Of a DNA stretch of 48,123 nt, positions 18,173 through 33,162 are shown in pieces (position 1 is the first letter of the stretch; each line of letters opens with the position of its first letter). This DNA comes from an uncultured Phycisphaerae bacterium (GTDB taxonomy: Bacteria; Planctomycetota; Phycisphaerae; Sedimentisphaerales; Anaerohalosphaeraceae), in the NCBI GenBank assembly GCA_937949545.1, contig CALEDR010000005.1, positions 1 through 48,123 on the forward strand, read 5' to 3'. The notes beneath the pieces were generated by a model. The model was given only the letters and a program-made list of their open reading frames with translations, was not told the DNA's origin and ran no database searches. The position numbers and the translations under genes are program-made.

Positions 18173-19228
18173 TCACAGCAGCGGGCCGCAGCCGATTTGC
18201 GGAAAATCAAGAGAGTTGACAAAAGACTGGAAATCCGGAGGCGGGGCCGTTTCCGGAAAAACGCAGGTCAGAACGAGAAAGGTCCTTCCGGCAAAAACAA
18301 GAAGGCCCTGGTGAATGCTTCGGCCTTCGGCAGCCGGGGCGGTGTGTTTAAACAGAACGGCTGGATGTCCGAAATACAGCGTCGTCCGGCGGAGAAGCCG
18401 GCCGTCGGAGGAAAGACGGGCCCGAGCAGCCAGATAATCCTGAATAAAGCTTTGCTGAAAAGAAGGACTGTCGGCCGAATCAGACAGAAACCGCCGGACA
18501 GTCAGATGATAAGCGGTGCGGCCGTCCGCTGCAGCAGCCTGATAGGAAACGGTATAACTGTTCGGGTCATGCTCAGGCCGGTGCTGAACAGGAGGCGAAG
18601 GAAACAAAACGGAAAATCCCTCTTCTTCTGAAACATAACGAACCTGCCCCGGGATGCGTTCCGTCAGATACGGATGTCGGCGGACAAGCTCACCCAGACG
18701 GACCTGCGCATCGACAAGCAGGTCATCTTCTCTTTCCGCCAATAATTTCTTTTTTTGCTCAGATGAATCGATCCCATTCAGCTCCGCCAGCAGCACCCAC
18801 AGATAAGAGGAAACGGGCTGAGTGTCTGCCAGCCGAAGACTGAGGAACAGCTGCGCCCATCCGTTTGCCTGCAGGGCGGCCTGTCGATACCAGAAAAGGG
18901 CTTTGTTAAAATCCTTCAAGACTCCTTTGCCCTCTTCATACAAACCCGCCAAGGCAATTTGTGCATCGGCATCACCACCGCAGGCCGCTGCTTTATACCA
19001 GAAAGCAGCTTGAGCCCAATCTTGCGGGACCTGACGACCATCTGCATACAGAAAACCAAGCAGATATTGGGCCCTGATATCTCCGGACTGGGCTTGCACA
19101 AGCAGCGCATCTATTTCAGGATGCTCTGTAACGTTTTGAGCCCAGGAGCACAGACTCTCCCCAAAGAGCATCTCGAACCCAAACCATATTATTCCGCAAA
19201 ACCGGACCAATTTCATCGTTTCAGACAT
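18173..19228 (-). CDS. Secreted Sel1-repeat protein with unknown C-terminal domain
   Basis: This is a 351-residue protein with an N-terminal hydrophobic export signal (FCGIIWFGFEMLFGESLCSWA). Three Sel1 units follow at about 40-140 (for example AQAAFWYKAAACGGDADAQ). The C-terminal half (about 200-340) is a beta-rich region without repeats. It contains GFSVLFPSPPVQHRPEHD, a tyrosine-rich strand and RTFLVLTCVFPE, and resembles the small periplasmic domains that test for protein solubility, but I cannot assign it to a family. The start codon overlaps the stop of the TPR gene in TGATG, so it is in the same operon. Confidence 0.75.
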   Translation of the reverse strand: MSETMKLVRFCGIIWFGFEMLFGESLCSWAQNVTEHPEIDALLVQAQSGDIRAQYLLGFLYADGRQVPQDWAQAAFWYKAAACGGDADAQIALAGLYEEGKGVLKDFNKALFWYRQAALQANGWAQLFLSLRLADTQPVSSYLWVLLAELNGIDSSEQKKKLLAEREDDLLVDAQVRLGELVRRHPYLTERIPGQVRYVSEEEGFSVLFPSPPVQHRPEHDPNSYTVSYQAAAADGRTAYHLTVRRFLSDSADSPSFQQSFIQDYLAARARLSSDGRLLRRTTLYFGHPAVLFKHTAPAAEGRSIHQGLLVFAGRTFLVLTCVFPETAPPPDFQSFVNSLDFPQIGCGPLL

Positions 19229-20631
19229 CAGCGGGTTTTGGCGGCCCGTTCCACCTGCTCGAGGTATTCGCGGACGTTGTCGCGCGGGTCAATCTGCTGA
19301 GCCCGCCGAAGCAGCGGAAGGGCCTCTTCATACTTGCCCTGCTGCACAAGGAGCTGGGCATGCCGGATTCGGGCCTGGGCTTCGTATCTCTCGATGGCCG
19401 CCGCCCGTTCGAAATAAAAGACCGCCTTTTCCGTATTCTGCATTTTTCCCCAGTGCTGTCCGAGCAGAATAAGGGCCTCGCCGTCCAGCGGGTCAATGGC
19501 GATAATTTCCTCCAGCAGACGAACCTGCTCTTCACTGCCGGCCCCTTCGGCCACAGCAATGCGGGCCTGGAGTTTGAGCATTTCCACCTTCAGAGAATCG
19601 GGAAACTGTCCTTCAAAGGCCTGCTGCATCTGCTCAAGCAGCTGCCGGCTTTCCGCCAGGGCTCCGCGGGTCATCAGGGCCCTGGATGCCCGAAGGAGCC
19701 GTTCAGCGGGCACAGACAGTTTCTGCTCGAGGGCTCGGGTGTAGGCCCTGACAGCAGATTCATACAGTTCTTCATTGATGTAAATATCGCCCAGAAGCAG
19801 CAGACTTTCCGCAGTCGAACGGCCCAGAGTGTCGAGCCATTCGAAAATCTCGGCGGCTTTGAGCGGCTTGTTCATTCCGAGGGAGGCGTTGGCCAGAAGG
19901 AGCCACAAATCCGCTCGGTCGGGGAACTTCCGGAGAAGTGATTCACAGAGGGCGGCGGCTTCCGGATACCGCTCCTGCCGGAACAGACTTCGTGCCAGCC
20001 CCATTTTCCAGTCCATTGTGGCCGGGTCCAACAAAACAGCCATCCGATAGGACGATTCGGCCGCCAGATGATCCTCCAGCGAGGCATAGGCAAACCCGAG
20101 CAGGCCGTACGTCACGGCGTCCGATCCGCCCAGCTCAATGACTTTAGTAAAAGCGTCGGCGGCACCGGCAAAATCGCTGTTCCGGATGCAAATCAGGCCT
20201 AAATTGCGCCAGGCCCGCCGAAATTTGGGGAATTTCTGCACGGCCTGCCGGTAGGCGGCGGCCGCCTGATTTAGGTTCTCCTGCTGAAAATAAATGTTGG
20301 CCAGCGTAAAATCAAAGACAGCGCTGGCGGCGGCATTTCGGGCCAGCTCTTTTTGAATGGCTGAAGCAGCTTCATTCATCTTATCCGACGAAATGAGGTT
20401 CAGAATTTTCAGAAGCCGCTCGCGTTCTTCTGCGGTCAGGCGGGGTTCAATGTCCGTTTCCGCCAGATAGCTTTCCGCCAGACGCTGCTGGAAGGAGGGC
20501 TGATTCCAGAAGGACAAAAACGACTCCGGCAGCGGCCGAGCCGGTTCCTCCGCCCGGCACAAAAATTTGCAAAACGGAGATGCGCTAAGCATCAAAGCCA
20601 GAACCGCAGAACGACGAATCACAGAAACCAT
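19228..20631 (-). CDS. Periplasmic TPR protein of the TonB2/TtpC-type cluster
   Basis: The protein has 467 aa with a signal peptide (VIRRSAVLALMLSASPF). About ten tetratricopeptide repeats follow, such as AAAAYRQAVQKFPKFRRAWRN and AVFYFERAAAIERYEAQAR. AAAGGAT upstream lies in the end of tonB. In Vibrio and Shewanella TonB2-type clusters a TPR protein occupies this same place after tonB, so I infer a helper that stabilises or organises the ExbB-ExbD-TonB complex in the periplasm. The stop is fused to the next start (TGATG). Its substrate or partner is not visible from sequence. Confidence 0.85.
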   Translation of the reverse strand: MVSVIRRSAVLALMLSASPFCKFLCRAEEPARPLPESFLSFWNQPSFQQRLAESYLAETDIEPRLTAEERERLLKILNLISSDKMNEAASAIQKELARNAAASAVFDFTLANIYFQQENLNQAAAAYRQAVQKFPKFRRAWRNLGLICIRNSDFAGAADAFTKVIELGGSDAVTYGLLGFAYASLEDHLAAESSYRMAVLLDPATMDWKMGLARSLFRQERYPEAAALCESLLRKFPDRADLWLLLANASLGMNKPLKAAEIFEWLDTLGRSTAESLLLLGDIYINEELYESAVRAYTRALEQKLSVPAERLLRASRALMTRGALAESRQLLEQMQQAFEGQFPDSLKVEMLKLQARIAVAEGAGSEEQVRLLEEIIAIDPLDGEALILLGQHWGKMQNTEKAVFYFERAAAIERYEAQARIRHAQLLVQQGKYEEALPLLRRAQQIDPRDNVREYLEQVERAAKTR

Positions 20632-20637
20632 GTTTTT

Positions 20638-21297
20638 TTATCCTTTCGGAAACGTAATTGGTACCCGCATACGAAACTTCACCGGCTGACCGTTTCGCCG
20701 GCCGGGTTCAAATTTCCACTGTTTGACGGCATTCAGAGCGGGCTTTTCGAAAATCGGGTCCGTGCTGGACTGCACGGTCGGATTTTCGACCCGCCCCTGT
20801 TCATCGACGACAAAAATAATATATACCGTTGCCGGTGTTTTCTTCCGGAGCTCTTTGGTCATCAGCGGACTGGGCTGATAAATCACACGCGGCTTCTGGT
20901 CGAGGTCTGCAATGGAAAAGAGGGCCTCGGCGTTTTTGGTTTCCGCCGCGACATTCTGCAGAGAAACGGCGAAATCCCCCTCCATCCAGCTGCCGCTGAG
21001 GGTTGGATTCAGCGCCAGCGTCAGCTGCTCGAGCGTCAGCGGCGGCGCCTCTTCGGTCAGCTCGGGGTGACTTTCTTCGGGCTCCGGTTCCTGCGGCGGC
21101 TTTTCTTCAGGCGGAGGCGGAGGCGCATCCAGTCTGGCTGTATCGACAGGGCGCAGAATCAAATCCGCCGCGGGCGGCTTGGCCAGGGTCTGCATCAGCG
21201 GCAGAATCAGGAAAAACAGCAGGGTCATCCCGATGCCGCCCAGCAGAACCGCCAGACGATGAAACAGTCTCCAGAACCAGCGAAACAGTGCACGCAT
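20638..21297 (-). CDS. tonB: TonB, energy transducer to outer-membrane receptors
   Basis: TonB spans the periplasm and passes proton-motive energy from ExbB-ExbD to TonB-dependent receptors. One N-terminal membrane helix (LAVLLGGIGMTLLFFLILPL) is followed by a proline/glutamate-rich linker (PPPPPEEKPPQEPEPEE). The C-terminal TonB domain has VYIIFVVDEQGRVENPTV and the ALNAVKQWKFEPGRRNGQPV signature. It is about 220 residues, on the short side, like TonB2. The start is not certain: GAGGAG is 6 nt before a TTG at 21306, 15 nt before the ATG used here (21297), and abuts another TTG (21312). Confidence 0.95.
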   Translation of the reverse strand: MRALFRWFWRLFHRLAVLLGGIGMTLLFFLILPLMQTLAKPPAADLILRPVDTARLDAPPPPPEEKPPQEPEPEESHPELTEEAPPLTLEQLTLALNPTLSGSWMEGDFAVSLQNVAAETKNAEALFSIADLDQKPRVIYQPSPLMTKELRKKTPATVYIIFVVDEQGRVENPTVQSSTDPIFEKPALNAVKQWKFEPGRRNGQPVKFRMRVPITFPKG

Positions 21298-21317
21298 ATG
21301 CCGCAAATCCAACTCCT

Positions 21318-21731
21318 CTACGGGCCGCCTTGTCGAGACGCTACGCTCACTTTGACCGCCCCGGCCAGTTTGGCCTCATCAATAACCCGAACCAGCTGGC
21401 CGGAGGGAGCCCCCTGATCGGCCTGAATAATGACGGGCACCTGTTCTTTCTGCAGCATTCGCTTGACAAGGGGCTGGATGCCGCTAAAGCCGATCTCGCG
21501 TCCCCCATACACCACCTGCCCCTTGTCGGTCAGGGCGATCAGGATGCTGTTTTTCTCCAGACGCACGGAGGAGGCCGCCTGCGGTTTGTCCACTTCGATT
21601 CCGGTCTCCTCTACAAACGTCGTCGTCACAATGAAAAAAATCAGCAGAATAAAGACGCAGTCCATCAGCGGGGAAATGTCAATCCCGACATCTTGATTGT
21701 CATCGGATGCGATTGAACGAAAACGTCCCAT
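21318..21731 (-). CDS. exbD: ExbD, proton-channel subunit
   Basis: ExbD forms the proton-conducting core with ExbB and pulls on TonB. It has one membrane helix near the N-terminus with the essential aspartate ([22 protein letters not shown]24) and a periplasmic domain of the ExbD/TolR fold ([29 protein letters not shown]). It has 137 residues, normal for the family. Its start overlaps the exbB stop by one base and it precedes tonB, so exbB-exbD-tonB form a continuous unit. Confidence 0.96.
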
Positions 21732-22408
21732 CAGTTGTCTCCTTTGGACCGGCGGATTTGTTTATAAAGATACTGGATGCAGACGGTTTCCAAATGAGCC
21801 AGAAAAGCCTTGTATCGGTTCTGTTTTCGAACCAGCTGATAGTGAAAAAACAGACCCGGCAAAGCAATAATCAGGCCGGTTTCCGTCGTGATAAGGGCCT
21901 CGGAAACACCGCCGGCGACCATCGCCATCGTTTTTTCCCCGCCGCTGCCAGTCGCCAATGCCGAAAACGTGGCCAGCATGCCGGTGACGGTTCCCAGCAG
22001 ACCGAGCAGGGGCGCCAGTCCGACGCAGATTTTCATCACCCGCAGGTCTCTTTCAAACGGTCCCAGCTCGGCGGTTTTGAGCTCTTCAAAGAACAGCACA
22101 CAGTCTTTAAGCGTGGAAAAACCAGATACCTCATTCAGGATTCGTCCGACGGTTCCTTTGCGAAGATGGGGCTGTTCGAGCCACTGCCGCCAGGTTTTTT
22201 CGCGGATTCGGGTAAATCCTTTTTCCGCAAACCGGAGCCACAGATGAACCCCCAGCCCGAACATCACAATGCCGACGGCGGCGATGGCCGTCATAGCCCA
22301 CCCGCCGGACAGCCAGATGCTCCAGGCCTCCTCCAGAAACCTCTGCACCGATTCGGGCAGAAGCCGAAGCATCTCGGAAAACTGAATTGGAAGATTCAGC
22401 TCGCTCAC
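21731..22408 (-). CDS. exbB: ExbB (ExbB2-like), proton-channel subunit
   Basis: ExbB is a MotA/TolQ/ExbB-family membrane protein of 225 aa, the pentameric scaffold of the TonB motor. The first membrane segment is [22 protein letters not shown]. The paired helices TM2 and TM3 carry the family signatures [14 protein letters not shown] and [25 protein letters not shown]. The start overlaps the upstream stop in ATGA and the stop overlaps exbD, so stoichiometry is set by coupling. Together with the longer TtpC-like relative upstream it makes the two-ExbB arrangement known from TonB2 systems. Confidence 0.95.
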
Positions 22409-24255
22409 TGGACCTCCTGACGACTCGACGCATTTCGGCTCATCTGGCCGACCAGACGGTCCTGATGATCCAAAATCGGCAGATGCGTGTCTTTGTGCTG
22501 CTCGAAGGCCTTCTGAACCTGTCGGGGATGCGCATCAATTCGGATAAAGGAGTCTTTGCGGTCAAGCAGATGCTCCAGAGGCGTATTGGCAGGCCGGGCC
22601 AGCAGCTCCTGAACCCGCACGGAGCCCAGGTATTTGCCCGCCTTGTCCACGACAAAAATCCGATCGAGAGAATCTCCGTTTTCGAGGGCCAGAATCTGCA
22701 CAAGGATTTCGGCGATTGGGGTCTTCGGTTCCGCCTGTACAAACGGCGGAATCTGTACAGACAGCTGGACGGCCGGCTTTTCCTGCACCGGTTCGGCAGC
22801 GGCCGGAGCCGACGAGACCGATGGGGCATGGGCAGCGGCTTTGGCCAGCTCGTTGAGAAACGCAAAGGCCGTCTTTTCCATCTGATTGAGAATGCCCTTG
22901 GATTTTCGGGAAAGAAAAGCGTGAATCAGCAGGGAGGGAATGGCCACAATCAGACCGAATTCGGTTGTAATCAGGGCCTCCGAAATGCCGCCAGAGAGTG
23001 TTTTGACATCTCCGGAGCCAAACACGGTAATCAGTTTAAAGGTGTTGATGATGCCGGTAACCGTCCCGAGAAGCCCCAGCAGCGGTGCGCAGGCGGCGCT
23101 GACGGCAATAAAGGGCAGGAACCGCTCCAGTTTCAGACGAACCGCCAGGATTTTCTCATACAGAATCTCCTCCACAAGTTCCCGCGGCTCGTTCATGTGC
23201 TCTGCGCCGACCCGGAGCATCTGTCCAATCGGGCCCCGGATAATGCGGGCTTTTTCCTTCGCCTCGGCGGAATCCATTTTGGAAACCGCCTTGAGAAAGG
23301 CGCTGATTTTTTTGGAGGAAGGCATTCGAATCCAAAGCATGCTGAGCCACTTAAACAGGGCCACCAGAAACGCCGCGCCCGCCAGGGCGAAAATCGGGAT
23401 CATCACGGGGCCGCCTTTCTGAATATGCTCCAGAAGGGTTTCACGAGTCTGTTCAATTTTCCGGGCGCTGCCGAGGGTCGGGTCCAGCGGAAAGAGCCCC
23501 CGGGATGTCTCAATCAGCTCGGCGGCAGCCTGGGCTGTCTGCGGGTTTTCAAAAGGCATCACGGTCGGTTCAAGAGAGCCGATCTGCTGTTCAACGGTGC
23601 CGACAACCCGTCCGTCCTGAGAGCGGAACAGGGCAATCGGCCCCAGCAGAACAAATGTCCCTTTCTGCACCAGACCCGTGGAATCCACAGCGGTACCCTC
23701 AAAGCGGCTCCCGCCGAGGGCTTCTTCCAGACGGTCCAGAGCCGTCAGGAGCAGGCGGCCCTGTGCCTCATAGATTTCCATTGCACTGAGGGTTCGGTTT
23801 TCCGCCGCCAGTTTGGCCTCCTCGAGCACCGCCCGATACCGCTGAAGTTCGGCGATATGAAGGCGGGATTCAAAATTGCGGATGTATTCTCCCAACAGGC
23901 CGGACAAATAAGATGCCTCCTCCTGACGGGCCTTGATTTCATTGCGGAGGGTGCTCAGGTCCAGCGTACGCCCGTCGAGCAGCCGGGAGGTCTGCTGGTA
24001 CTGCCGGCGGACTTCGAGCAGCCGGTTTTCCAGCTCATTGATTCGCCGGTTCAAAGGCAGCAGTTCCTCGGCCGTCTGCTGCCGGAAGGCGGCCAGTTCG
24101 GCCAGGCTGTCATCGAGTTTCTGCTGAATTTTCTGAACGGAGGCATTGACATCCGCCGTCTGGCTCTGACCGTATCCGATGGAAACAAGACCCAAAGTCA
24201 AGACAATTGCGGCCAGACTTCTATGCAGAATGATTGTTCGAAAAGATTGTGTCAT
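22405..24255 (-). CDS. TtpC-like long ExbB protein with a C-terminal CBS domain
   Basis: TtpC is the extra ExbB-family subunit required by TonB2 systems. This 616-residue protein has a signal peptide (to about Q30), a periplasmic coiled coil (about 33-165) and a linker domain. TM1 is at 281-307. The ExbB signature pair lies in TM2 (379-409, [13 protein letters not shown]) and TM3 (424-448, [20 protein letters not shown]). After a Pro/Ala-rich linker (475-510) the C-terminus (511-606) reads as a CBS pair of the MgtE kind (DRIFVVDKAGKYLGSVRVQELL; HLPILDHQDRLVGQM). Ordinary TtpC proteins end after TM3. The CBS part would be cytoplasmic and could bind a nucleotide, which is inference. AAGGA precedes the ATG. 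Confidence 0.88.
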   Translation of the reverse strand: MTQSFRTIILHRSLAAIVLTLGLVSIGYGQSQTADVNASVQKIQQKLDDSLAELAAFRQQTAEELLPLNRRINELENRLLEVRRQYQQTSRLLDGRTLDLSTLRNEIKARQEEASYLSGLLGEYIRNFESRLHIAELQRYRAVLEEAKLAAENRTLSAMEIYEAQGRLLLTALDRLEEALGGSRFEGTAVDSTGLVQKGTFVLLGPIALFRSQDGRVVGTVEQQIGSLEPTVMPFENPQTAQAAAELIETSRGLFPLDPTLGSARKIEQTRETLLEHIQKGGPVMIPIFALAGAAFLVALFKWLSMLWIRMPSSKKISAFLKAVSKMDSAEAKEKARIIRGPIGQMLRVGAEHMNEPRELVEEILYEKILAVRLKLERFLPFIAVSAACAPLLGLLGTVTGIINTFKLITVFGSGDVKTLSGGISEALITTEFGLIVAIPSLLIHAFLSRKSKGILNQMEKTAFAFLNELAKAAAHAPSVSSAPAAAEPVQEKPAVQLSVQIPPFVQAEPKTPIAEILVQILALENGDSLDRIFVVDKAGKYLGSVRVQELLARPANTPLEHLLDRKDSFIRIDAHPRQVQKAFEQHKDTHLPILDHQDRLVGQMSRNASSRQEVQ

Positions 24256-24268
24256 GCTGATTCCTTGT

Positions 24269-25099
24269 TTACTGAATGGTTAGAGGCAGAAGAACATAAG
24301 AAGCGGTTTTCTCGTTTTTCAAGATGGCAATCAAATCGCTGACGGAGCCGGCAATCTCCGGTTTCACGGTCCAGTTCCACCGGCTCTCATCCGGGAACCC
24401 AAAACCGCCTGCGGTCTGGGCCGGATTGCTGAAATACCCGCAGCTGATGCCGACATAAACAGCGGCAACCTCCTGCGAGGTGCCGTCCGGAAGCGTGCGG
24501 ATTTCACTGACGGCCGTAATTTCCTTATGAAACTTATCCACCTCATTGAGAATCCCCACCACATTCTGGAACCGCTCGGACAGGGACTGGCGAGAAGAAT
24601 CCGCTTTCCCGGCGATTCGCTGACTAAGAGGCTTGACGTGCTGACGAAGCGGCTCGGGCAAACGCTCCAACAGGGTGCAAACCCGCTCTTCCATCCGGCT
24701 GACGAGTTTTTTCAGCACAGAGGAGGCATCCAGCAGCCGCTCTTTTTCCTCGAGCATTTCATCGCGTTTGCGGTCCGCTTCGGCAATGCTGGCGTCCGCT
24801 TCGCGGATTTTATTTTCAACCGATTCTATCTCCCGCTCCAGCAGGGCTATCCGTTCGGCCAGGAGTTCCTTGGCCAAAGCGAAATCCCGCTTTTCTTTCG
24901 ACAGAATCCGCTGGGTTTCCACCCATTTTTCTGTGGCGGAGCGGATGGTTTCGAGCGTCTCGGCGGGTTCCGAGGCCCGGGCCGCGGAGAAAAAAAGGCC
25001 GACAGCAACCAGCCCGAGCAGCCATCGACGGATACCGGACGGCCCAAACGCCGGATGCCGTTTTCCGCAATCTGCTTTTTCTGAAAGACTTCTGTTCAT
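24269..25099 (-). CDS. DUF3450 periplasmic coiled-coil protein of the TonB2/TtpC cluster
   Basis: The protein has 276 aa with a signal sequence (IRRWLLGLVAVGLFFSAARA). A long coiled coil runs over about 60-130 (LLEREIESVENKIREADASI), followed by the DUF3450 C-terminal beta region with AAVYVGISCGYF and FPDESRWNWTVKPEIA. It is the first gene of the DUF3450-ttpC-exbB-exbD-tonB-TPR order seen in marine gammaproteobacteria, and likely contacts the TtpC coiled coil in the periplasm (inference). GGAAGGATG precedes the ATG. Its own promoter lies in the 131-nt gap upstream. Confidence 0.9.
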   Translation of the reverse strand: MNRSLSEKADCGKRHPAFGPSGIRRWLLGLVAVGLFFSAARASEPAETLETIRSATEKWVETQRILSKEKRDFALAKELLAERIALLEREIESVENKIREADASIAEADRKRDEMLEEKERLLDASSVLKKLVSRMEERVCTLLERLPEPLRQHVKPLSQRIAGKADSSRQSLSERFQNVVGILNEVDKFHKEITAVSEIRTLPDGTSQEVAAVYVGISCGYFSNPAQTAGGFGFPDESRWNWTVKPEIAGSVSDLIAILKNEKTASYVLLPLTIQ

Positions 25100-25157: not shown

Positions 25158-25200
25158 ACTCTACTCTTAACCTGTTAGGGATTTATTAAAATCCTGTTTG
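25158..25200 (-). promoter_or_regulatory. Promoter with phased CTAACAG element before the DUF3450-tonB operon
   Basis: On the - strand CAAACAG (25194-25200) and CTAACAG (25172-25178) start exactly 22 bp apart. CTAACAG is followed by 8 nt and a TAGAGT -10 (25158-25163). This is the same layout as at 31422-31464. No -35 is needed if an activator of the PhoB/OmpR family binds there. An inverted repeat GGATTT-TAAT-AAATCC sits between the two copies. The predicted leader is about 50 nt. Confidence 0.55.
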
Positions 25201-25230
25201 CTTCCGGTAAGTTTGCGGCTCTGCTGCGTC

Positions 25231-28200
25231 CTAAAAAGATGCGCTCAGACTAAGGGAAAACTCCATTCCCTTCCGGTACGTGCTTTTGGTTACATCGTCT
25301 CCGATATATTTGGAGCGGTACACGGTTTTGATTTCCGGATCGAGCAGGTTCTTGGCCTGAAACTTCAGTTTCCAGATAGACCCGAGGGGCTGGGTCAGAC
25401 TGAAGTTGAGCGTGCCGTACTCGGTTTCGTAGAGACTGGGAATCAGCACGCGGGTCTGGCCGGCACCCGGGCTGGCTCCGGCCACGAGCGTATCGCCGCG
25501 CACCGTATAAAACAGGGCCAGCTGCGTTTTGACTTCGGGCACATCGTAAGTCATGTAAATGTTGTAAAGATAGGCCGGGGCATTGGTCATATCCCGCTTG
25601 GTCATCGGCGCACGAACATTGGGATGATTGAACCGCTCAGCCTCATCGGGCGGAAGGGTCACCTCGGAATTGATCAGCGTGGCGTTGCCGCCGACGGAAA
25701 GGCCGTTCATGCTTTCCCAAAAACGGGCCAGGTCCTGACGAACCTCCAGTTCATACCCGCTCATTTGACCTTCGGGGTAATTGACAGCGGTCGTGTAATC
25801 AAAGGAGGCGGTGACCCGCTGAACATACTCGATGGGGTCCTTGACCTTTTTATGGAACCAGGAGACGGAAACGAGACTGCCCGCATACGGGGTATAATCC
25901 AGCCGCAGGTCATAGTTTTTCAGAGAGCTGGTCTGCAAATCCGGATTTCCGATAAAGACATCGCCGCCCAGGTACTCGCTTTGCATAATCGGGGTCAATT
26001 CTTTCAGGGTCTGGCGGGCGATGGTTTCACTGTAGGAGCCGCGAAGCGTAATCGGGTCCCACGGACGATACTGAAATCCGATCGAGGGCAGAACATCGGT
26101 CTGCTGCGTCGAGACATCCGCATCGCCGGGATTGAGTTTTACGGCGGTGTACGAACCTTTGGGATACCAGAAAACCTGGGATTCGGGCTGATTGACAATA
26201 TCGAGGGTGGTTTTTTCGACCCGACTGCCTCCAATCAGGTTAAACTGGGAGGTCAGGGGCATATCCATCATATAATACCAGGCGGAAATTTTTTGCAGAC
26301 CTTTATAGTCTACATCGACCTGACCGGCCGTAATGGGGTGATTTTCGGTCGGAAATGTGCTGCTCCAATAAAACTCCCACGGCCTTTTGGGACCCATCTG
26401 GTTATCTGCAAAATTGGCAAAAGACTCCTGATTGTATTGCCGAGTCACAGTGTCTTCAAAAAACCCGAATTTCAGATACCCTTCCTGACCGCCCCACTGT
26501 TCAAACGGAAGTTTCAGATTGATCTGATATTGCTCGCTGTCTTCCGTAATTTCTTTCCAGACTCTCTGGAGATAGCCCATCGTAAAATTGGCGGAGGGCT
26601 TGAAGGGCTGGTGCCGGCCGACCACCTGTCCGCCTTCAATCAGCGGATACCATTTGGTGCCGAACATCCGCTTGTCAGGCTGAACCATCCCGGCGGAACT
26701 GTAGGCGATTTTCCAGTCCACCTCCGGCGGCAGAGTCCGCAGCCAGCGGCCCAGACTCAGGTCCAAATCAAACAGCGTATGGCGTCCGCTGAACTGGAGA
26801 GTGCGGGTGGTCCGTTCGGTATATTCGAGCGTTTCCGAACGCAGATACGGGGAAGCATCCGGCGTTTCGGCGTTGCCGGGGTGGTCCGGGTTATACGGGT
26901 CATAATTGTCAAACTCAGGTCCGAAAAAGGTCGGCCAGTATCGATGCAAATTTTTCTTGCCCCGTGTATTTTCGGCCAGCATGGCGGTATCTTCCGCCAG
27001 ACGTGTATAAAGATACAGAATGGAAAACCGGTGGTCTTCCAGCTCGATGCCGGCAGTCCCCAAGGTGCCCCACTGAACAGATTGGGTGCTCTCCCGAATG
27101 TCCCAGAGCGAGGTTTTAAAAGCATCCCATCCTTCAATTTGCGACTGACGCGGCGTCATTGGCTGACCGGGACTGCGGACCCAATAGGCATCATCCCGTC
27201 CCTCTTTATAGGAGCTGTCCTTTTCATAAAAGAAGCTGCCGAATCCGCCGAGTCGCGTTCCGTCGGCCAGGTCAAACTTATCCCCGCCGGACAGAGACCA
27301 CTTATAGTCGCGCGGCTGCTCCTCAGGACTGACTCCGACAGCACCATTCCAGTTCATACCCAGTCGGTCGAACTGAATATCCCGTTCTCCTTCGTCTTTG
27401 CCCCATCGGTTGACGCCGCCGCCTCGATACCCGAGAAAACGGCTTCCGGCGGAAGGATAATCCCAGCTGGCTGAATAATCCGCCTTCAGGGTTCGTTCGT
27501 TCGGCACCCCTTTCAGAATAATATTGACCGCCCCGCCGGAGGCGTCGCCCTGCTGGTCAGGGGTAAAGGTTTTGCTGACCTGAATGTTTTCGATGGCGGC
27601 GGCGGGGAACTGGTCCAGCTGGACGGCTCGTTTGTCGGCGTCGGCTGTGGGCAGACGCACACCGTTCATCTGGGAATTGACATATCGGTCGGGAAGACCG
27701 CGAATGACGGCGTATTTTCCGTCCTGAATGGTTGCCCCTGCCACCAGCCGCAGGGCGCTGGCGGCGTCGGAGGCGCCCGCCCGGCTCATTAAATCGGCAC
27801 TGATGGAATCCATCAGCGCCGGACTTTCCATCCGCAGGTCCAGCAGCGCCGCTTCCGTACCGGCTCCCATCTGCAAGTCTTCGACGACAAACTCTTCAAT
27901 ATCCGTAAAATCGCCGGCCAGCGAAACATTCAGTTCCGTCATCTGACCAGCCTGGACCAGCACATCGGAACGAACCTGTCGGGTATAGCCGCTTTTAGAA
28001 AAAATCAGAGTATAGGTTCCAGGAGCCGCTTCCGGAAACACAAACAACCCTTCTGAATTGGTTTGAACGGTAAGATTGAGCTCTGGAATGACGATCGAGA
28101 CCTCCCCAAGGGGCATCCCAAAATCGCCATCATAGACACTTCCGCGTATGCTTCCAATTCCCTCAGCAGCCCGAGCCGAAAAACCAAAAGCCCCCAGTAG

Positions 28201-28239
28201 CAGCCAGATAAAAACCCCGCTAACCGTTTGTTTTACCAT
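25231..28239 (-). CDS. TonB-dependent outer-membrane receptor with carboxypeptidase-regulatory N-terminal domain
   Basis: This outer-membrane gated barrel of 1002 aa imports a ligand using TonB. The start is the ATG at 28239 (MVKQTVSGVFIWLLLGAFG), a signal peptide. A CarboxypepD_reg-like beta domain follows (about 25-105, GSIRGSVYDGDFGMPLGEV). A TonB-box-like stretch (DIEEFVVED) leads to the plug (about 125-260, ATIQDGKYAVIRGLPDRYVNSQMNG; ENIQVSKTFTPDQQGDASGG). The rest is a 22-strand-type barrel ending in SLSASF with the terminal aromatic. The start overlaps the TPR gene stop by 7 nt. The ligand is unknown; the beta-helix protein and TPR protein upstream are the likely partners. Confidence 0.94.
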   Translation of the reverse strand: MVKQTVSGVFIWLLLGAFGFSARAAEGIGSIRGSVYDGDFGMPLGEVSIVIPELNLTVQTNSEGLFVFPEAAPGTYTLIFSKSGYTRQVRSDVLVQAGQMTELNVSLAGDFTDIEEFVVEDLQMGAGTEAALLDLRMESPALMDSISADLMSRAGASDAASALRLVAGATIQDGKYAVIRGLPDRYVNSQMNGVRLPTADADKRAVQLDQFPAAAIENIQVSKTFTPDQQGDASGGAVNIILKGVPNERTLKADYSASWDYPSAGSRFLGYRGGGVNRWGKDEGERDIQFDRLGMNWNGAVGVSPEEQPRDYKWSLSGGDKFDLADGTRLGGFGSFFYEKDSSYKEGRDDAYWVRSPGQPMTPRQSQIEGWDAFKTSLWDIRESTQSVQWGTLGTAGIELEDHRFSILYLYTRLAEDTAMLAENTRGKKNLHRYWPTFFGPEFDNYDPYNPDHPGNAETPDASPYLRSETLEYTERTTRTLQFSGRHTLFDLDLSLGRWLRTLPPEVDWKIAYSSAGMVQPDKRMFGTKWYPLIEGGQVVGRHQPFKPSANFTMGYLQRVWKEITEDSEQYQINLKLPFEQWGGQEGYLKFGFFEDTVTRQYNQESFANFADNQMGPKRPWEFYWSSTFPTENHPITAGQVDVDYKGLQKISAWYYMMDMPLTSQFNLIGGSRVEKTTLDIVNQPESQVFWYPKGSYTAVKLNPGDADVSTQQTDVLPSIGFQYRPWDPITLRGSYSETIARQTLKELTPIMQSEYLGGDVFIGNPDLQTSSLKNYDLRLDYTPYAGSLVSVSWFHKKVKDPIEYVQRVTASFDYTTAVNYPEGQMSGYELEVRQDLARFWESMNGLSVGGNATLINSEVTLPPDEAERFNHPNVRAPMTKRDMTNAPAYLYNIYMTYDVPEVKTQLALFYTVRGDTLVAGASPGAGQTRVLIPSLYETEYGTLNFSLTQPLGSIWKLKFQAKNLLDPEIKTVYRSKYIGDDVTKSTYRKGMEFSLSLSASF

Positions 28240-29495
28240 GGTTGCCCCAATCCACCCTGAATCTGACGCATCCGCTCCCACAGTTCTTCATCCGGTTCAA
28301 TCGAATGCAGGGCCATCGAACAGCAGGTCGCCGCCAAATCCTCCGCCCGAGGTCGAGAATTGGGATTTTCTGCCCCCTCCTGGACGGCTCTTTTGTAAAG
28401 AGCCAAAGCCGAGGTCTTGTCGCCCATTCCGGCATAGGCCTCCGCCAGGGGACGCAGTGCACCGGCCCGATAAATGTTGAAAAGAGATGACCTCTTCACT
28501 TCATAAGTCTTCAGAAGGTCTTGAACCTCTTTTTGGGCTTCTTCAGACTGTCCGGCCCGATAACGCAGGGCAATCAGCGGAGCACCCAGCGAAAACTGAG
28601 TTTCATCCGGCCATTGATACCTTTCCATCAGCAGCCGGGCTTCTTCCAGCAGTTCGACCGCTTTGGCAGAATCGTTATGGGCTAAGGCAGCCTGCGTAAG
28701 ACGCGTCAGCAGCTGGACCCGCTGAAAAGCGGGCAGCGGAGACCAGGACTCTTTAATCATCTTCTCCAGCCGAACCCGCGGCTCTTTCTGATCATAGAGT
28801 ACTTCATACATTTGCGCATACGAGAGAAGAACATTATGGCGCACTTCTGTATGATTTTGCTTCAGCTCCGATTCCAGACGCTGAAATTCTTTCTCAAAGA
28901 GTTCCGTCTGCTGAAGCTGACAATCAGAAAGAACCATGCGCCCTCTCTGAGACGGTTCCAGCCCTGCCTGGGTCTTCAGAGCCACCTCCAGCCGCCCCAA
29001 AAGAGCATAAGCCTGTGCAATTTTGGACTTGATCAGATCCTGCCGCCATTCCTGAGCTGTCTCTTGCGGAGCATTCGGCAGGCCTTTTTCGGCCATCTCC
29101 TGGGCTTGCCGGAGATACTTCTCTGCCAGATCAGCCCGCTGATGACCAGCGGCATACACAGCCAGATCGGCCAGACAGGCCCCTCGTCTCCAGTTCTCAA
29201 TCTTTTGAAGATACCGAAGGGCACGGGCGGGCTGATCCAGTTTCAATGCCGTTTCCGCCACCATGGCCTGCGTGCGGCTTCGGTCCTTCAGATGCGGCTT
29301 GGATGGCATCCTCGAAACGCTCTCAAATGCCAAATCCAGCAGTTCAAGCCGATAGGGTTCCAGCGGAAGTTCCTCAAAATCATCCGACCGGGTTTCCCGT
29401 ACCGCCAGCTCGGGTTGACCCTCAAGTTTTGCTGCTTCACAAAAGGCACAAACAGCACAGACAGACACTGCAAAAAAACAGAGAACGCTTTTCAT
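28233..29495 (-). CDS. Secreted TPR-like helical-repeat protein upstream of the receptor
   Basis: The protein has 420 residues with a signal peptide (MKSVLCFFAVSVCAVCAFCEA). It continues as degenerate helical hairpins of TPR type (ALRYLQKIENWRRGACLADLA, AEKYLRQAQEMAEKGLPNAP, LAEAYAGMGDKTSALALYKRA). It lies between the beta-helix gene and the receptor gene, is coupled to the receptor by a 7-nt overlap, and has its own promoter. I infer a periplasmic adaptor or receptor-assembly helper. No catalytic motif is visible. Confidence 0.8.
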   Translation of the reverse strand: MKSVLCFFAVSVCAVCAFCEAAKLEGQPELAVRETRSDDFEELPLEPYRLELLDLAFESVSRMPSKPHLKDRSRTQAMVAETALKLDQPARALRYLQKIENWRRGACLADLAVYAAGHQRADLAEKYLRQAQEMAEKGLPNAPQETAQEWRQDLIKSKIAQAYALLGRLEVALKTQAGLEPSQRGRMVLSDCQLQQTELFEKEFQRLESELKQNHTEVRHNVLLSYAQMYEVLYDQKEPRVRLEKMIKESWSPLPAFQRVQLLTRLTQAALAHNDSAKAVELLEEARLLMERYQWPDETQFSLGAPLIALRYRAGQSEEAQKEVQDLLKTYEVKRSSLFNIYRAGALRPLAEAYAGMGDKTSALALYKRAVQEGAENPNSRPRAEDLAATCCSMALHSIEPDEELWERMRQIQGGLGQPW

Positions 29496-29575
29496 ATAAT
29501 TCCTTTTCTGACAAGCATTCGGCTTGTCCGCGTCGATTCCGATTTCTGCGGGGACTTTATACGGGTTTTATGTAC

Positions 29576-29618
29576 AGTATATTTGGAATCGATTAGGTTT
29601 CCGTTAGACCCCAGAATG
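29576..29618 (-). promoter_or_regulatory. Promoter with phased CTAA elements before the TPR-receptor unit
   Basis: On the - strand CTAACGG (29601-29607) and CTAATCG (29590-29596) start 11 bp apart. CTAATCG is followed by 8 nt and a TATACT -10 (29576-29581). The spacing to the -10 is identical to that of two other promoters in the locus. A possible third unit, CATTCTG (29612-29618), continues the 11-bp phase. The leader is about 75 nt. Confidence 0.5.
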
Positions 29619-29625
29619 AAGGCAT

Positions 29626-29661
29626 AAAAAAGGGATGGCAGAAGCCGTCTTCTGCCATCCC
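29626..29661 (-). terminator. Strong intrinsic terminator after the beta-helix gene
   Basis: A perfect 13-bp stem (29632-29644 with 29649-29661) closes on a 4-nt loop and is followed on the - strand by six T (29626-29631). It should end most transcripts of the beta-helix gene and so uncouple it from the TPR-receptor unit downstream, letting the secreted protein be made in excess. Confidence 0.9.
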
Positions 29662-29696
29662 CTTTCCTTGAACTTCCAGTCTGGTGCGAAGTTCGT

Positions 29697-31313
29697 TTAT
29701 AGACTCAGGAGCCAGTTCTCGCTGAGAACCGAAATATCATCCAGATTCACCTGTTCATCACCGGTCACATCGCCCTTCAGACCAGTCAGACCATACTGAT
29801 AAGCCGCTGTCCAGCCGACCAGCCAGTTGTCATACGCATTGAAAGCTCCACGATAGCTGACCGGAGTGAAAAATCCATCCGCCGGAGCCGTCAAACCCGC
29901 TGTCAGGGCATCGTTAGCAGCCCGCGGATCCAGATACACCACCGGCTGGATCGTCTTGCCGCCGGCAGACACGTTCGCCCCGCGGACCAAAGCCCGAATC
30001 GGCATCACAGAGGCAAAAATATTGTTCACACAGTTGCTGCCGGACAGACCAGATACGTAATTGTAGCCGTTGCTGTTCGAATAGGCACTGGCATTCTGAT
30101 TGCGGAAGAACACACAGTAGTTGATTTCAGCCAAATTGCCCGACGTCTGGGCCTGATACATATTCTGCAGGTCCGCCGCAGAAGCACAGCTGACATTCGG
30201 ATGTCCGCCGGTCTTCGGGTTCGACTTATTCCAGGCCTCACTGTAAGCAGTCGTCCAGGTTTCCGCCCAAGTAAGCGTTCCATTGTAAGCATAACCGTTG
30301 TCGTTGTCGCTGGCATTGTCGAACCGAACCAGGTTGGTCCCCAGATCCATAAAGATGCTGTTGTGGAACTGCACGCGGGCGTTCCCTCTCCAAGCCGTTC
30401 CCGCACGACCGGCCAAAGGTTGCCCAATAGCCGTAAAGTTGTATAGATTGGCTGTCGTAACCGGCTGAGCATCCGAGTTCTCGGCACCATCCATTTCAAA
30501 ACAATGATCGCTCACACCGGAGCCCTGAGGAGCATCCGCACTGTACCCCTGAACAATCAAACCGAACTGGGCTTTGCCTCTCCAGCCCTGATCCAAATCG
30601 AACGAGTCATCGCCAACATTCCAGATGCTCACATACTTCAGGTTGACAGTACCACCCCAAATTTCGATTCCGTCATCCACGTTGTTCATAATCTCGAGGT
30701 AGGCAATATCCGTTTCCCGTCCAACACCGCCCAGCGAAAGACCGTTCAACTCATTGGCCAGACCAACCACACGGCCGCCGTACCGAATCGAAACATACAT
30801 CAGCGAACCGCTGTCGTCATTATCATTGGTCCCGCCGTAAAGAACCCGAGTGTCTCCCGGAAACTCTTCCACAAGCCCCTCCATCGGCGAAACATTCGAC
30901 CCGAGGGGGCAGGACTGCTGATTAAGGATATTCGTGTTAGAAATCATGGCCTGTCCCATAATGGTTAAATTGCCCCACTCATTGCAGGCTGGCCGCCAAG
31001 TCTTGAAATCATCGTTCTTCGAGGTGAAAATAATGGGCTTTAAGGCCGTACCAACTGCATAAATTTTCCCGCCCCGGCAGACTGCCAGACTGCCGGCACC
31101 ATTGGCTGTCGGCGTACTCGCAATCACCGTTCCCGGCTCAATCGTCAGAGTGGCACCGGGAAGAACATAAATTTGATTCTGCAGATTGTAGGTGTTGTCG
31201 GCCGTCCAGGTCGTCGAAACCGAAATATTGTCGGTTACCAAAATTTCGGCTCCGGAGGCCATGCCGACCGCCAGAAATCCACCTAACAGAACACTTGCAA
31301 AAACTTTCTTCAT
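29697..31313 (-). CDS. Secreted beta-helix protein with dockerin-like C-terminal tail
   Basis: The ATG at 31313 follows AAAGGAAAAGG. The 538-residue product has a signal peptide (MKKVFASVLLGGFLAVGMAS). Its repetitive beta body, about 25-500, resembles a right-handed parallel beta helix (LTIEPGTVIAS, AYLEIMNNVDDGIEIWGGTV, LKYVSIWNVGDDSFDLDQG). The last 27 residues form a dockerin-like half repeat (GDVTGDEQVNLDDISVL) ending in NWLLSL, a tail common on exported proteins of Phycisphaerae (family knowledge). It is the first gene of the TonB locus and has its own promoter and terminator. It may be a cell-surface ligand-capture protein that feeds the receptor. Its ligand and any enzyme activity are unknown. 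Confidence 0.82.
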   Translation of the reverse strand: MKKVFASVLLGGFLAVGMASGAEILVTDNISVSTTWTADNTYNLQNQIYVLPGATLTIEPGTVIASTPTANGAGSLAVCRGGKIYAVGTALKPIIFTSKNDDFKTWRPACNEWGNLTIMGQAMISNTNILNQQSCPLGSNVSPMEGLVEEFPGDTRVLYGGTNDNDDSGSLMYVSIRYGGRVVGLANELNGLSLGGVGRETDIAYLEIMNNVDDGIEIWGGTVNLKYVSIWNVGDDSFDLDQGWRGKAQFGLIVQGYSADAPQGSGVSDHCFEMDGAENSDAQPVTTANLYNFTAIGQPLAGRAGTAWRGNARVQFHNSIFMDLGTNLVRFDNASDNDNGYAYNGTLTWAETWTTAYSEAWNKSNPKTGGHPNVSCASAADLQNMYQAQTSGNLAEINYCVFFRNQNASAYSNSNGYNYVSGLSGSNCVNNIFASVMPIRALVRGANVSAGGKTIQPVVYLDPRAANDALTAGLTAPADGFFTPVSYRGAFNAYDNWLVGWTAAYQYGLTGLKGDVTGDEQVNLDDISVLSENWLLSL

Positions 31314-31421
31314 ACCTTTTCCTTTCTTTGATGAAACTTTTCCTGCTTTCCATACACACACCAATTTGGACACACTCCACACACGGCCGCCGGCGGCACA
31401 CACCGCGACAAAGCCGCTGGA

Positions 31422-31464
31422 TTTGTAAGGGAACGCTGTTAGGCAGGAATGAAGCAACTGTTAA
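31422..31464 (-). promoter_or_regulatory. Promoter with phased CTAACAG element before the beta-helix gene
   Basis: On the - strand TTAACAG (31458-31464) and CTAACAG (31436-31442) start exactly 22 bp apart, with TTCATTC midway at 11 bp. CTAACAG is followed by 8 nt and a TACAAA -10 (31422-31427). The layout matches a PhoB-type activated promoter in which the box replaces the -35. The leader to the ATG at 31313 is about 100 nt. I see nothing else in the 31465-31557 stretch. Confidence 0.55.
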
Positions 31465-31616: not shown

Positions 31617-31704
31617 GGAGAGGTGTCGGAGCGGCTGATCGAGCTGGTTTCGAAAACCAGTGTGCCCTTTTAGGGTACCGCGGGTTCGAATCCCGCCCTC
31701 TCCG
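31617..31704 (+). tRNA. tRNA-Ser (CGA)
   Basis: This is an 88-nt class II tRNA. The acceptor stem GGAGAGG pairs with CCTCTCC. The anticodon arm CTGGT-TTCGAAA-ACCAG gives anticodon CGA, reading UCG. There is a long variable arm typical of tRNA-Ser (GTGCCC...GGGTAC) and a TPsiC arm CGGGTTCGAATCCCG. The 3' CCA is not encoded. hisH begins 76 nt downstream with no terminator between, so the two could share a transcript. Confidence 0.97.
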
Positions 31705-31780: not shown

Positions 31781-32401
31781 ATGCTGGTGATTATTGATTA
31801 CGGTGTGGGGAATGTTCGGAGTGTGATTAATGCATTCCGGTACATCGGCGCCCCGATTGAGGTTTCGTGCGAACCCGCCGACATTCGCCGGGCCCAAGGT
31901 TTAATTTTGCCAGGTGTAGGAGCCAGCGGATATGCCATGCAGAATTTGGCTCCAATTGCTGATGTGATTCAGGAAGAGGCCCTGTCGGGCAAGCCGCTGC
32001 TGGGAATCTGTGTCGGCTATCAAATCCTGTTCGACGAAACGTATGAAATGGGGATCCATCGGTGCCTGGGACTCATTCACGGCAAAGTCGTCCCGATTCC
32101 CAAGGACCTCGGGCTGACAATTCCGCATATGGGATGGAACTATGTGGAGATTCCGGAAGGAATGACACTGCTCGAGGAACTGCGGCCAGGAAGACACTTC
32201 GCATTCGCCCATTCCTACTTCGCTGAGATTTCCGACCCAGATACGAAAATGGCTGCCGCACATTACGGGATAAAAATCCCCGCAGCCGTCCAGAAAAAGA
32301 ACATCTTCGGCTGCCAGTTTCATCCGGAAAAGAGTGCGGCCGACGGGCTGCAGTTTTTGAAGAATTTTGTACGGTTCTGTGAGAAGCAGGCGGTATGCTG
32401 A
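31781..32401 (+). CDS. hisH: HisH, glutaminase subunit of imidazole glycerol phosphate synthase
   Basis: HisH makes ammonia from glutamine and channels it to HisF in histidine synthesis. The 206-residue class I amidotransferase has the nucleophile in LLGICVGYQ and the His-Glu pair in GCQFHPEKS, so the triad is intact. The glycine-rich [11 protein letters not shown] stretch is also typical. The start ATG ([11 protein letters not shown]) has no clear ribosome site. It overlaps hisF by 7 nt, which is usual for this pair. No other his gene is adjacent, so the pathway is scattered in this genome. Confidence 0.97.
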
Positions 32402-33162
32402 CCAAACGAATCATCCCCTGTCTGGACGTCAAAGACAACCGGGTTGTCAAAGGGGTGAATTTTGTCAATCTGCGGGATGCAGGCGACCCCGTGGAATTGG
32501 GGGCCCGCTACAGCGAAGAAGGGGCAGACGAGCTGGTCTTTCTGGATATTACGGCGACGATTCGCTCCCGAAAAACCATCGTAGAGATGGTGGAAAAGGT
32601 AGCCGAGCGGGTGTTTATACCCTTCACAGTCGGCGGCGGAATATCGAGTGCCGATGAAATCGGACTTCTGCTGCGAAGCGGTGCGGACAAATGCTCCGTC
32701 AATACGGCAGCAGTACGCAATCCGCGATTGATTTCCGAAGCCGCCCAGCGATTCGGAAGTCAGTGCGTTGTGCTGGCTATCGATGCCCGGCGAACACACG
32801 GGCAGAACAACCGCTGGCACGTGTGCGTCAAAGCCGGTTCCGAACCGACGGACCTGGACGCGGTCCAATGGGCCATACGGGCTCAAGAACTCGGGGCCGG
32901 AGAAATCCTGCTGACCAGTATGGATGCCGACGGAACGCAAGCCGGCTATGACGTGGCCTTAACCAAAGCGATTGCCGAAGCGGTGGATATTCCGGTGATT
33001 GCTTCCGGCGGAGCCGGCACACTCGAAAGCATGGCCGAGGTGATCGAAGAGGGAAAAGCCGATGCCGTCTTGGCAGCCTCAATTTTCCATTACGGCACCT
33101 TTTCGATTCGTCAGGTAAAAGACTATCTGGCCAAACGAGGCATCCCAATCCGTCCGGCCTGA
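32395..33162 (+). CDS. hisF: HisF, cyclase subunit of imidazole glycerol phosphate synthase
   Basis: HisF is the TIM-barrel synthase that uses ammonia from HisH to form imidazole glycerol phosphate and AICAR. The 255-aa protein has the catalytic aspartates in [13 protein letters not shown] (D11) and [12 protein letters not shown] (D130-type), and the phosphate-binding loops PFTVGGGI and VIASGGAGT. Its length is normal. It starts inside the end of hisH and is convergent with the radical SAM gene, 41 nt apart. Confidence 0.98.

Follow-up and report, generated by a model that had tools for sequence, protein, structure and literature searches.

Three promoter elements in a stretch of 48,123 nucleotides from an uncultured Phycisphaerae bacterium of the order Sedimentisphaerales (assembly GCA_937949545.1, contig CALEDR010000005.1, positions 1 to 48,123 of the forward strand; hereafter, the window) are, with a probability of about 0.9 as judged from the sequence, Pho boxes, through which PhoB would activate transcription at low phosphate and drive an outer-membrane uptake system that scavenges phosphorus. 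They precede a gene coding for a beta-helix protein, a unit coding for a TPR-like protein and a TonB-dependent receptor, and an operon coding for a TonB2-like energiser (Table 1). Beta-helix protein, receptor and energiser are very probably switched on together upon phosphate depletion, because their promoters carry the same tandem box as the phosphate-sensor and phosphate-transporter genes of the same genome. The principle of tandem Pho boxes is an established one; the present case would provide an order of planctomycetes with a defined Pho box, and it appears to tie a widespread, unnamed gene cluster (beta-helix protein, TPR protein, TonB receptor and TtpB-type energiser) to phosphate starvation. 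Among the matches listed from the open-access literature, neither a planctomycete Pho box nor a Pho-controlled TtpB-type energiser was found.

A tandem box shared with phoB and pst genes

Reading of the minus strand confirmed the positions, spacings and -10 hexamers of the three sites as proposed in a first-pass annotation of this DNA. The common element is (CTAAY-N6)n, an array in 11-bp phase of which the final copy lies 8 nt upstream of the -10. It comprises two to four CTAAY units per promoter, one of them often being degenerate. At 25158-25200, the outer units are 22 bp apart and TTAATAA lies between them, giving three 11-bp copies. The predicted transcription starts precede the start codons of the 538-aa beta-helix protein, the 420-aa TPR-like protein and the DUF3450 protein by 102, 74 and 52 nt, respectively. 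A sigma-70 promoter scan gave no minus-strand match at any of the three -10 boxes, which, together with the presence of the box before phoB-phoR and pstS, supports the earlier view of PhoB/OmpR-type promoters with the box in place of the -35.

In the window, patterns combining paired units with a -10 match these sites alone, with no match in 100 shuffles. The simpler CTAANNG-N8-TANNNT gives three matches (0.29 expected), one of which is another site, at 39113; the beta-helix promoter, whose -10 reads TACAAA, escapes this pattern. YTAAYNG by itself is depleted (27 occurrences, 55 expected). Genome-wide, CTAAYNG-N8-TANNNT matches four times, of which twice in the window, versus 33 times for the reversed control pattern, and by eye no pho gene lies in the stretches of about 10 kb around the two remaining matches (C2:52003 and C49:14083). 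These search patterns were written after the sites had been seen; the independent tests are those on orthologous promoters and with models trained on other genera.

Elsewhere in the same genome, a contig has the gene order phoB - phoR - Porin_5 - pstS - pstC - pstA - pstB - phoU, and the box precedes both phoB (CTAACATcttcTTAATCC-N8-CAATCT) and pstS (TTAACCG/CTAACGA/CTAACAA-N8-TAAGGT). The best NCBIfam match of this PhoB is TIGR02154 (PhoB; 261 bits, below the cut-off of 296), and the sensor kinase beside pst-phoU scores slightly under the cut-offs of the PnpS and PhoR models. A HisI-like gene, recognised by eye, adjoins phoB. A scan of the genome, as had been suggested with phosphate genes as a possible test set, gave five matches for the 11-bp pattern (DUF3450, TPR, phoB, pstS and one other; five for the reversed control) and three for the 22-bp pattern (beta-helix, DUF3450 and pstS; one for the reversed control). 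Together, the two patterns mark all three promoters in the window, those of phoB and pstS, and a single further site. The proposal that the beta-helix, receptor and TonB units would form one regulon is thus supported by one box common to all of them and to phoB and pst.

The E. coli Pho box is an 11-bp repeat at a set distance from the -10, with CTGTCAT as half-site, whereas the half-site in the window is CTAAC, in the variable and often partly degenerate copies mentioned above. E. coli PhoB is described as binding tandem-symmetric direct repeats, with sites overlapping the -35 (PMC3348028). The PhoB box of Synechocystis is described as three repeats in tandem, built on a TTAA core and all of them required for binding in electrophoretic mobility shift assays (PMC11126600); it belongs to a different phylum and has other flanking bases and another target set, and no TonB energiser is named in the available part of that source.

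Conservation of the box and models trained on other genera

Of 78 genomes, 14 have the DUF3450 protein, with the own genome counted; in the relatives, the surroundings of its gene were compared over up to 19 kb. Genes for beta-helix protein, TPR protein, receptor and DUF3450 protein occur together in 10 of the 14 relatives' loci; the exceptions are L027 and L028 (without the receptor part), L022 (without the beta-helix gene) and L033 (which ends at a contig end). A tandem was defined as a pair of YTAAY 11 or 22 bp apart in the 350 nt preceding a unit (215-350 nt at contig ends). It was present in 28 of the 38 promoters (beta-helix, 7 of 11; TPR, 8 of 12; DUF3450, 13 of 15; own genome included), versus 0.86 expected from shuffles (0.27, 0.28 and 0.31, respectively), and on the opposite strand of the same regions in one of 38. 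Without the genus of the window, 19 of 29 promoters retain the tandem, and the 22-bp pair of the beta-helix promoter is retained in both same-genus relatives. The conservation on which the first-pass annotation had staked its proposal is thus found. Similarly, the tandem lies upstream of 11 of 13 phoB orthologues and of 11 of 12 pstS orthologues, the single pstS exception (G041) sitting behind a porin gene whose promoter carries the box. It occurs upstream of none of six second-tier PhoB-family regulators, which are paralogues, and of one of five distant PstS genes; antisense pairs were found in three of the 36 regions of the phoB/pstS set (two paralogues and one distant PstS).

Over 13 genomes, a pattern of two CTAAY units and a -10 gave 21 matches, versus 19 for the reversed pattern. 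Seventeen of the 21 precede pho or cluster genes, as assigned by eye and for some with Pfam, namely pstS (three), phoB (three), alkaline phosphatase genes (two), porin genes beside pstS (two), a Na/Pi transporter gene, a metallophosphatase gene, and beta-helix (two), TPR (two) and DUF3450 (one) genes; four do not. Among the reversed-pattern matches, 15 of 19 lie inside open reading frames (ORFs) of at least 90 aa and none precedes a pho gene. Raw pattern counts were dropped as evidence, the reversed controls being of similar size, and the weight lies in the location of the matches rather than in their number. Furthermore, of 270 genes in stretches picked around pho and cluster genes, 43 are preceded by the tandem at no more than 350 nt, 40 of them being pho or cluster genes; the set omits the beta-helix gene of the window, as the longest-ORF rule placed its start within the promoter. 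In L025 (5887-9009), two tandem beta-helix copies are read by this rule as one 1040-aa frame.

The gap between box and -10 was counted in 46 regions found by orthology, of which the 40 with a tandem were used; the cluster copies of the same genus (L020 and L021), five phoB/pstS copies with near-identical sequences, the six paralogous regulators, four distant PstS loci, and seven cluster regions lacking a tandem did not enter the set. TAnnnT starts 8 nt past the last good unit in 10 of the 40 tandem promoters and 19 nt past it in 11, so that 19 promoters have it at one gap or the other, and any further gap from 0 to 24 nt occurs in at most four. Shuffles averaged 1.2 at gap 8, and ten was never reached at any gap in 2000 trials. 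The gap of 19 nt equals 8 + 11, and the intervening sequence is often one weaker extra unit (e.g., CTCATAA or CACACAA). The claim of a last unit exactly 8 nt before the -10 held at the three sites; in general, the distance between the last good unit and the -10 has to be widened to 8 or 8+11 nt, which, with the weaker unit in between, is consistent with one phased array. The 8+11 nt phase was seen in the DUF3450 promoters of L022, L025, L026, L029, L031, L032 and L033, the beta-helix promoters of L025 and L026, and the TPR promoters of L029 and L030. This second -10 phase may set promoter strength.

A weight matrix was built from 17 hand-picked sites, being the last pair before the gene in Pho promoters outside the genus and outside the cluster. 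With 11-bp spacing, it ranked the 29576 site first and the 25158 site second among 96,184 window positions. This 11-bp-only model misses the 31422 site and was rejected; a two-spacing model including 22 bp is needed. In addition, five of the 17 training sites (two porins, two alkaline phosphatases and one Na/Pi transporter) came solely from the pattern search, and the exercise was therefore repeated with 11 phoB/pstS promoters found by orthology, again with hand-picked sites, with spacers unscored and both spacings allowed; for phoB, this set excludes the site of G042 and a duplicate copy, and for pstS those of G019, G035 and G069. The 11-site model placed the 31422, 25158 and 29576 sites at ranks 1, 2 and 3 in the window, respectively. 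In shuffled windows the top score is expected 0.045 times. The telling point is that the top three ranks all fall on the three sites.

The uptake cluster and its counterparts

Table 1. Boxes, genes and terminator of the three units in the window
Feature	Position	Strand	Sequence, basis or remark
Pho box, beta-helix gene promoter	31422..31464	-	TTAACAG-N15-CTAACAG-N8-TACAAA; units 22 bp apart, middle copy degenerate; direct reading
Beta-helix protein, 538 aa, secreted	29697..31313	-	Signal peptide and dockerin-like C-terminus by eye
Hairpin then six T, likely terminator of beta-helix unit	29626..29661 (stem 29632-29661)	-	Hairpin scan and reading
Pho box, TPR-receptor unit promoter	29576..29607	-	CTAACGG-N4-CTAATCG-N8-TATACT; units 11 bp apart; direct reading
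TPR-like protein, 420 aa	28233..29495	-	TPR match below Pfam cut-off; signal peptide by eye
TonB-dependent receptor	25231..28239	-	Pfam CarboxypepD_reg, Plug, beta-barrel
Pho box, TonB2-like operon promoter	25158..25200	-	CAAACAG-N4-TTAATAA-N4-CTAACAG-N8-TAGAGT; direct reading
DUF3450 protein, TtpB-like	24269..25099	-	Pfam PF11932; first gene of operon
MotA/TolQ/ExbB proton-channel protein with CBS domain, TtpC-like	22405..24255	-	Pfam
ExbB	21731..22408	-	Pfam
ExbD	21318..21731	-	Pfam
TonB	20638..21312	-	Pfam PF03544
TPR protein, TtpD-like	19228..20631	-	Pfam

The hairpin and T run part the beta-helix unit from the TPR-receptor unit, and the receptor ATG overlaps the 3' end of the TPR gene, which suggests coupled translation. 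Pfam matches, together with the gene order in the window and in relatives, point to a TtpB-TtpC-ExbB-ExbD-TonB-TtpD operon, the MotA/TolQ/ExbB protein with a CBS domain being presumably TtpC. The opposite strand carries, upstream of the cluster, a tRNA-Ser(CGA) gene (31617-31704) and a histidine-biosynthesis gene of the HisA/HisF type (32395-33162).

The 538-aa beta-helix protein matched no Pfam or NCBIfam family, and its profile matched no PDB chain by sequence. Its fold model has many short strands (mean pLDDT 80.5, pTM 0.85), and the 50 PDB matches listed for it are described mostly as beta-helix enzymes and tailspikes, with low TM-scores and none at E <= 0.001. The beta-helix alignment A1 holds one protein with an undetermined stretch (L032), which the folding alignment A3 omits. 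By inference, the protein resembles ElpS and FI-FII. Caulobacter ElpS (cc0170) is described as a secreted lipoprotein induced by phosphate starvation, encoded beside the TonB receptor gene cc0171; it is released and associated with raised phosphatase activity (PMC2996285). The cc0170-cc0171 arrangement is also the gene order of the beta-helix relatives in Sphingomonas and Indioceanicola, in which beta-helix gene, receptor gene and type II secretion genes follow each other. In contrast, the window protein has, by eye, no lipobox or cysteine in its N-terminal signal region, and no type II secretion genes were identified adjacent to its gene; in view of the lacking cysteine, it is therefore called ElpS-like and not a lipoprotein of the ElpS/FI-FII family. 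Its likeness to ElpS is one of the gene context of its relatives.

The lipoproteins FI-FIII of Flavobacterium johnsoniae (PUS III/IV) are described as low-phosphate-induced and polygalacturonase-like, with 31-36% identity over about half their length to a low-phosphate Caulobacter lipoprotein that is by description ElpS, and the gene for FII sits in the phoBR cluster, next to that of a receptor with PF07715, PF13715 and PF14905 (PMC8115612). The window receptor has these three families as well; the Flavobacterium system belongs to another phylum and is likened by description and families, and the part of that source that was available describes no TtpB/TtpC-type energiser. Furthermore, Caulobacter PhoB is described as controlling several TonB receptors (PMC11208175). 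As for the energiser, TtpB2 of the Vibrio TonB2 system is a DUF3450 protein and TtpD2 has TPR motifs, the system being described as serving siderophore uptake and induced by iron limitation (PMC6957404). Its components (TtpB2, TtpC2, ExbB2, ExbD2, TonB2 and TtpD2) correspond in kind to those of the window, with the DUF3450 gene first, whereas the window energiser carries a Pho box.

A beta-helix profile search over contigs of 84,980 species gave 226 relatives, and the best 80 of 226 were kept. Planctomycetota supply most of these, and Omnitrophota, Verrucomicrobiota and Sumerlaeota some; relatives were also found in Alteromonas, Sphingomonas and Bacteroides. Among the best 80 loci, some stretches of which are short, 76 have the TPR gene, 70 the receptor gene and 65 the DUF3450 gene. 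Six plasmid loci of beta-helix relatives were opened. On that of Alteromonas macleodii, the row runs phoB - phoR - pstS - oxygenase gene - beta-helix - receptor - DUF3450 - MotA/ExbB - ExbB - ExbD - TonB - TPR. The Pseudoalteromonas plasmid locus has energiser, beta-helix and receptor genes, with pho genes not in view; that of Parabacteroides has receptor and beta-helix genes only; and that of Marinobacter has no cluster partner genes. In addition, a Plug-domain search over ten genomes gave a single receptor, that of the cluster, in each of the single-contig genomes G041, G046 and G050, and two in the fourth one, G010. Other counts were two (G035), seven (G042), eight (G004), ten (G003), five (G001, which is without a DUF3450 gene) and 13 in the own genome, some of the latter being fragments.

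Mechanism, alternatives and other lineages

We infer PhoB as the binder, induction at low phosphate, and phosphate or a phosphorus compound as the cargo. When phosphate is low, PhoB would be phosphorylated by PhoR, the genes of both lying next to pstSCAB-phoU on a different contig. PhoB~P would then bind the CTAAY array head-to-tail in 11-bp phase, contact sigma in place of the -35, and activate its own operon, pst, the beta-helix gene, the TPR and TonB-dependent receptor unit, and the TtpB-TtpC-ExbB-ExbD-TonB-TtpD energiser. Outside the cell, the beta-helix protein may bind or process a phosphorus-bearing polymer, the product of which would be taken up by the receptor, powered by the TtpB-type machine.

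Several observations weigh against this interpretation. Ten of the 38 cluster promoters are without the tandem, and 21 of the 40 tandem promoters are without TAnnnT at gap 8 or 19. The raw pattern counts do not exceed those of the reversed controls (21 versus 19 over 13 genomes; 5 versus 5 and 3 versus 1 in the own genome). Owing to its degenerate middle copy, the 31422 site falls to rank 581 in the 11-bp model; in the 11-site model, which leaves spacers unscored, the best score of the 29576 site comes from a register 11 bp off, and the second and third scores are expected 0.22 and 0.24 times per shuffled window. One match of the 11-bp pattern in the own genome lies upstream of a class II ribonucleotide reductase gene. 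Outside the order, CTAAY occurs in just 8 of 78 beta-helix promoters. Finally, the receptor gene next to elpS in Caulobacter is described as constitutive (PMC2996285).

That the box belongs to another OmpR-family regulator, e.g., for iron or envelope stress, which also controls the pst genes, is very unlikely. Regulators of this family share tandem half-sites of 10-11 bp, and at C3 the own genome encodes a further full-length PhoB-like regulator (44% identical), but the box stands before phoB in 11 of 13 genomes and before none of the six second-tier regulators, and the genes that it precedes are phoB, pst and those for porins, alkaline phosphatase and the Na/Pi transporter. It is highly improbable, to the point of being nearly negligible, that the CTAAY tandem is a general promoter feature, such as a lineage-specific -35 or an AT-rich accident, with no link to phosphate: although the motif is short and simple and its raw counts are similar to those of the reversed control, pho and cluster genes make up 40 of the 43 tandem-bearing genes (among the 270 examined, in stretches picked around such genes), the reversed pattern falls inside ORFs in 15 of 19 cases and never before a pho gene, and the antisense strand has the tandem in one of 38 regions.

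An alternative that leaves the regulon intact, namely that the cluster takes up iron or another metal and is co-induced by phosphate starvation, is judged unlikely. It draws on the closest characterised energiser, Vibrio TonB2, which is described as iron-limitation-induced and serving siderophore uptake (PMC6957404), and on the 13 Plug matches in the own genome, so that other receptors could share the energiser. However, the cluster lies beside phoB-phoR-pstS on the Alteromonas plasmid, its counterparts in Caulobacter (PMC2996285) and Flavobacterium (PMC8115612) are described as induced by phosphate starvation, and three of the four single-contig relatives have the cluster receptor only. The Pho-box interpretation can be carried further, with even odds in our estimate: a complete TonB machine (TtpB-TtpC-ExbB-ExbD-TonB-TtpD) would be dedicated to phosphorus uptake and under PhoB control throughout Planctomycetota and outside it. 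Its partners would be a single receptor, the TPR protein and a beta-helix protein of the ElpS type, and its cargo would be macromolecules that bear phosphate, not iron chelates; some planctomycetes would then have TonB transport for phosphorus alone. The question of the cargo is directly testable, and the box motif can be used for scanning further genomes.

The ribonucleotide reductase site (G000:C49:19465-19496; CTAACGG-N4-CTAACAT) lies about 135 nt upstream of the longest frame, coding for the class II (B12-dependent) enzyme; it is without a clear -10 at 8 nt and is the sole 11-bp match of the own genome away from pho and cluster genes.

Other lineages seem to use a different half-site. Indeed, 6-mers recur at 11 bp in 20 of the 78 beta-helix promoters, versus at most 11 at other spacings from 7 to 39, and outside the order TCTTTA or CTTGAC repeats at 11 bp precede some pstS, phoB and beta-helix genes, although this signal is noisy. 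TCTTTA is repeated at 11 bp in the pstS promoters of three carriers of the beta-helix gene, G078, G086 and G092 (L231, L232 and L229, respectively), which suggests that the Pho half-site differs between lineages. A box of the E. coli type reaches at best 11 of 14 positions upstream of the beta-helix genes of Alteromonas, Sphingomonas and Pseudoalteromonas, a score of 11 being found elsewhere in some of these loci as well. Outside Planctomycetota, the pstS promoter of L221 (G090, Pontiellaceae) carries the box, by eye, as CTAATCT-N4-CTAACAT-N8-CAAATT.

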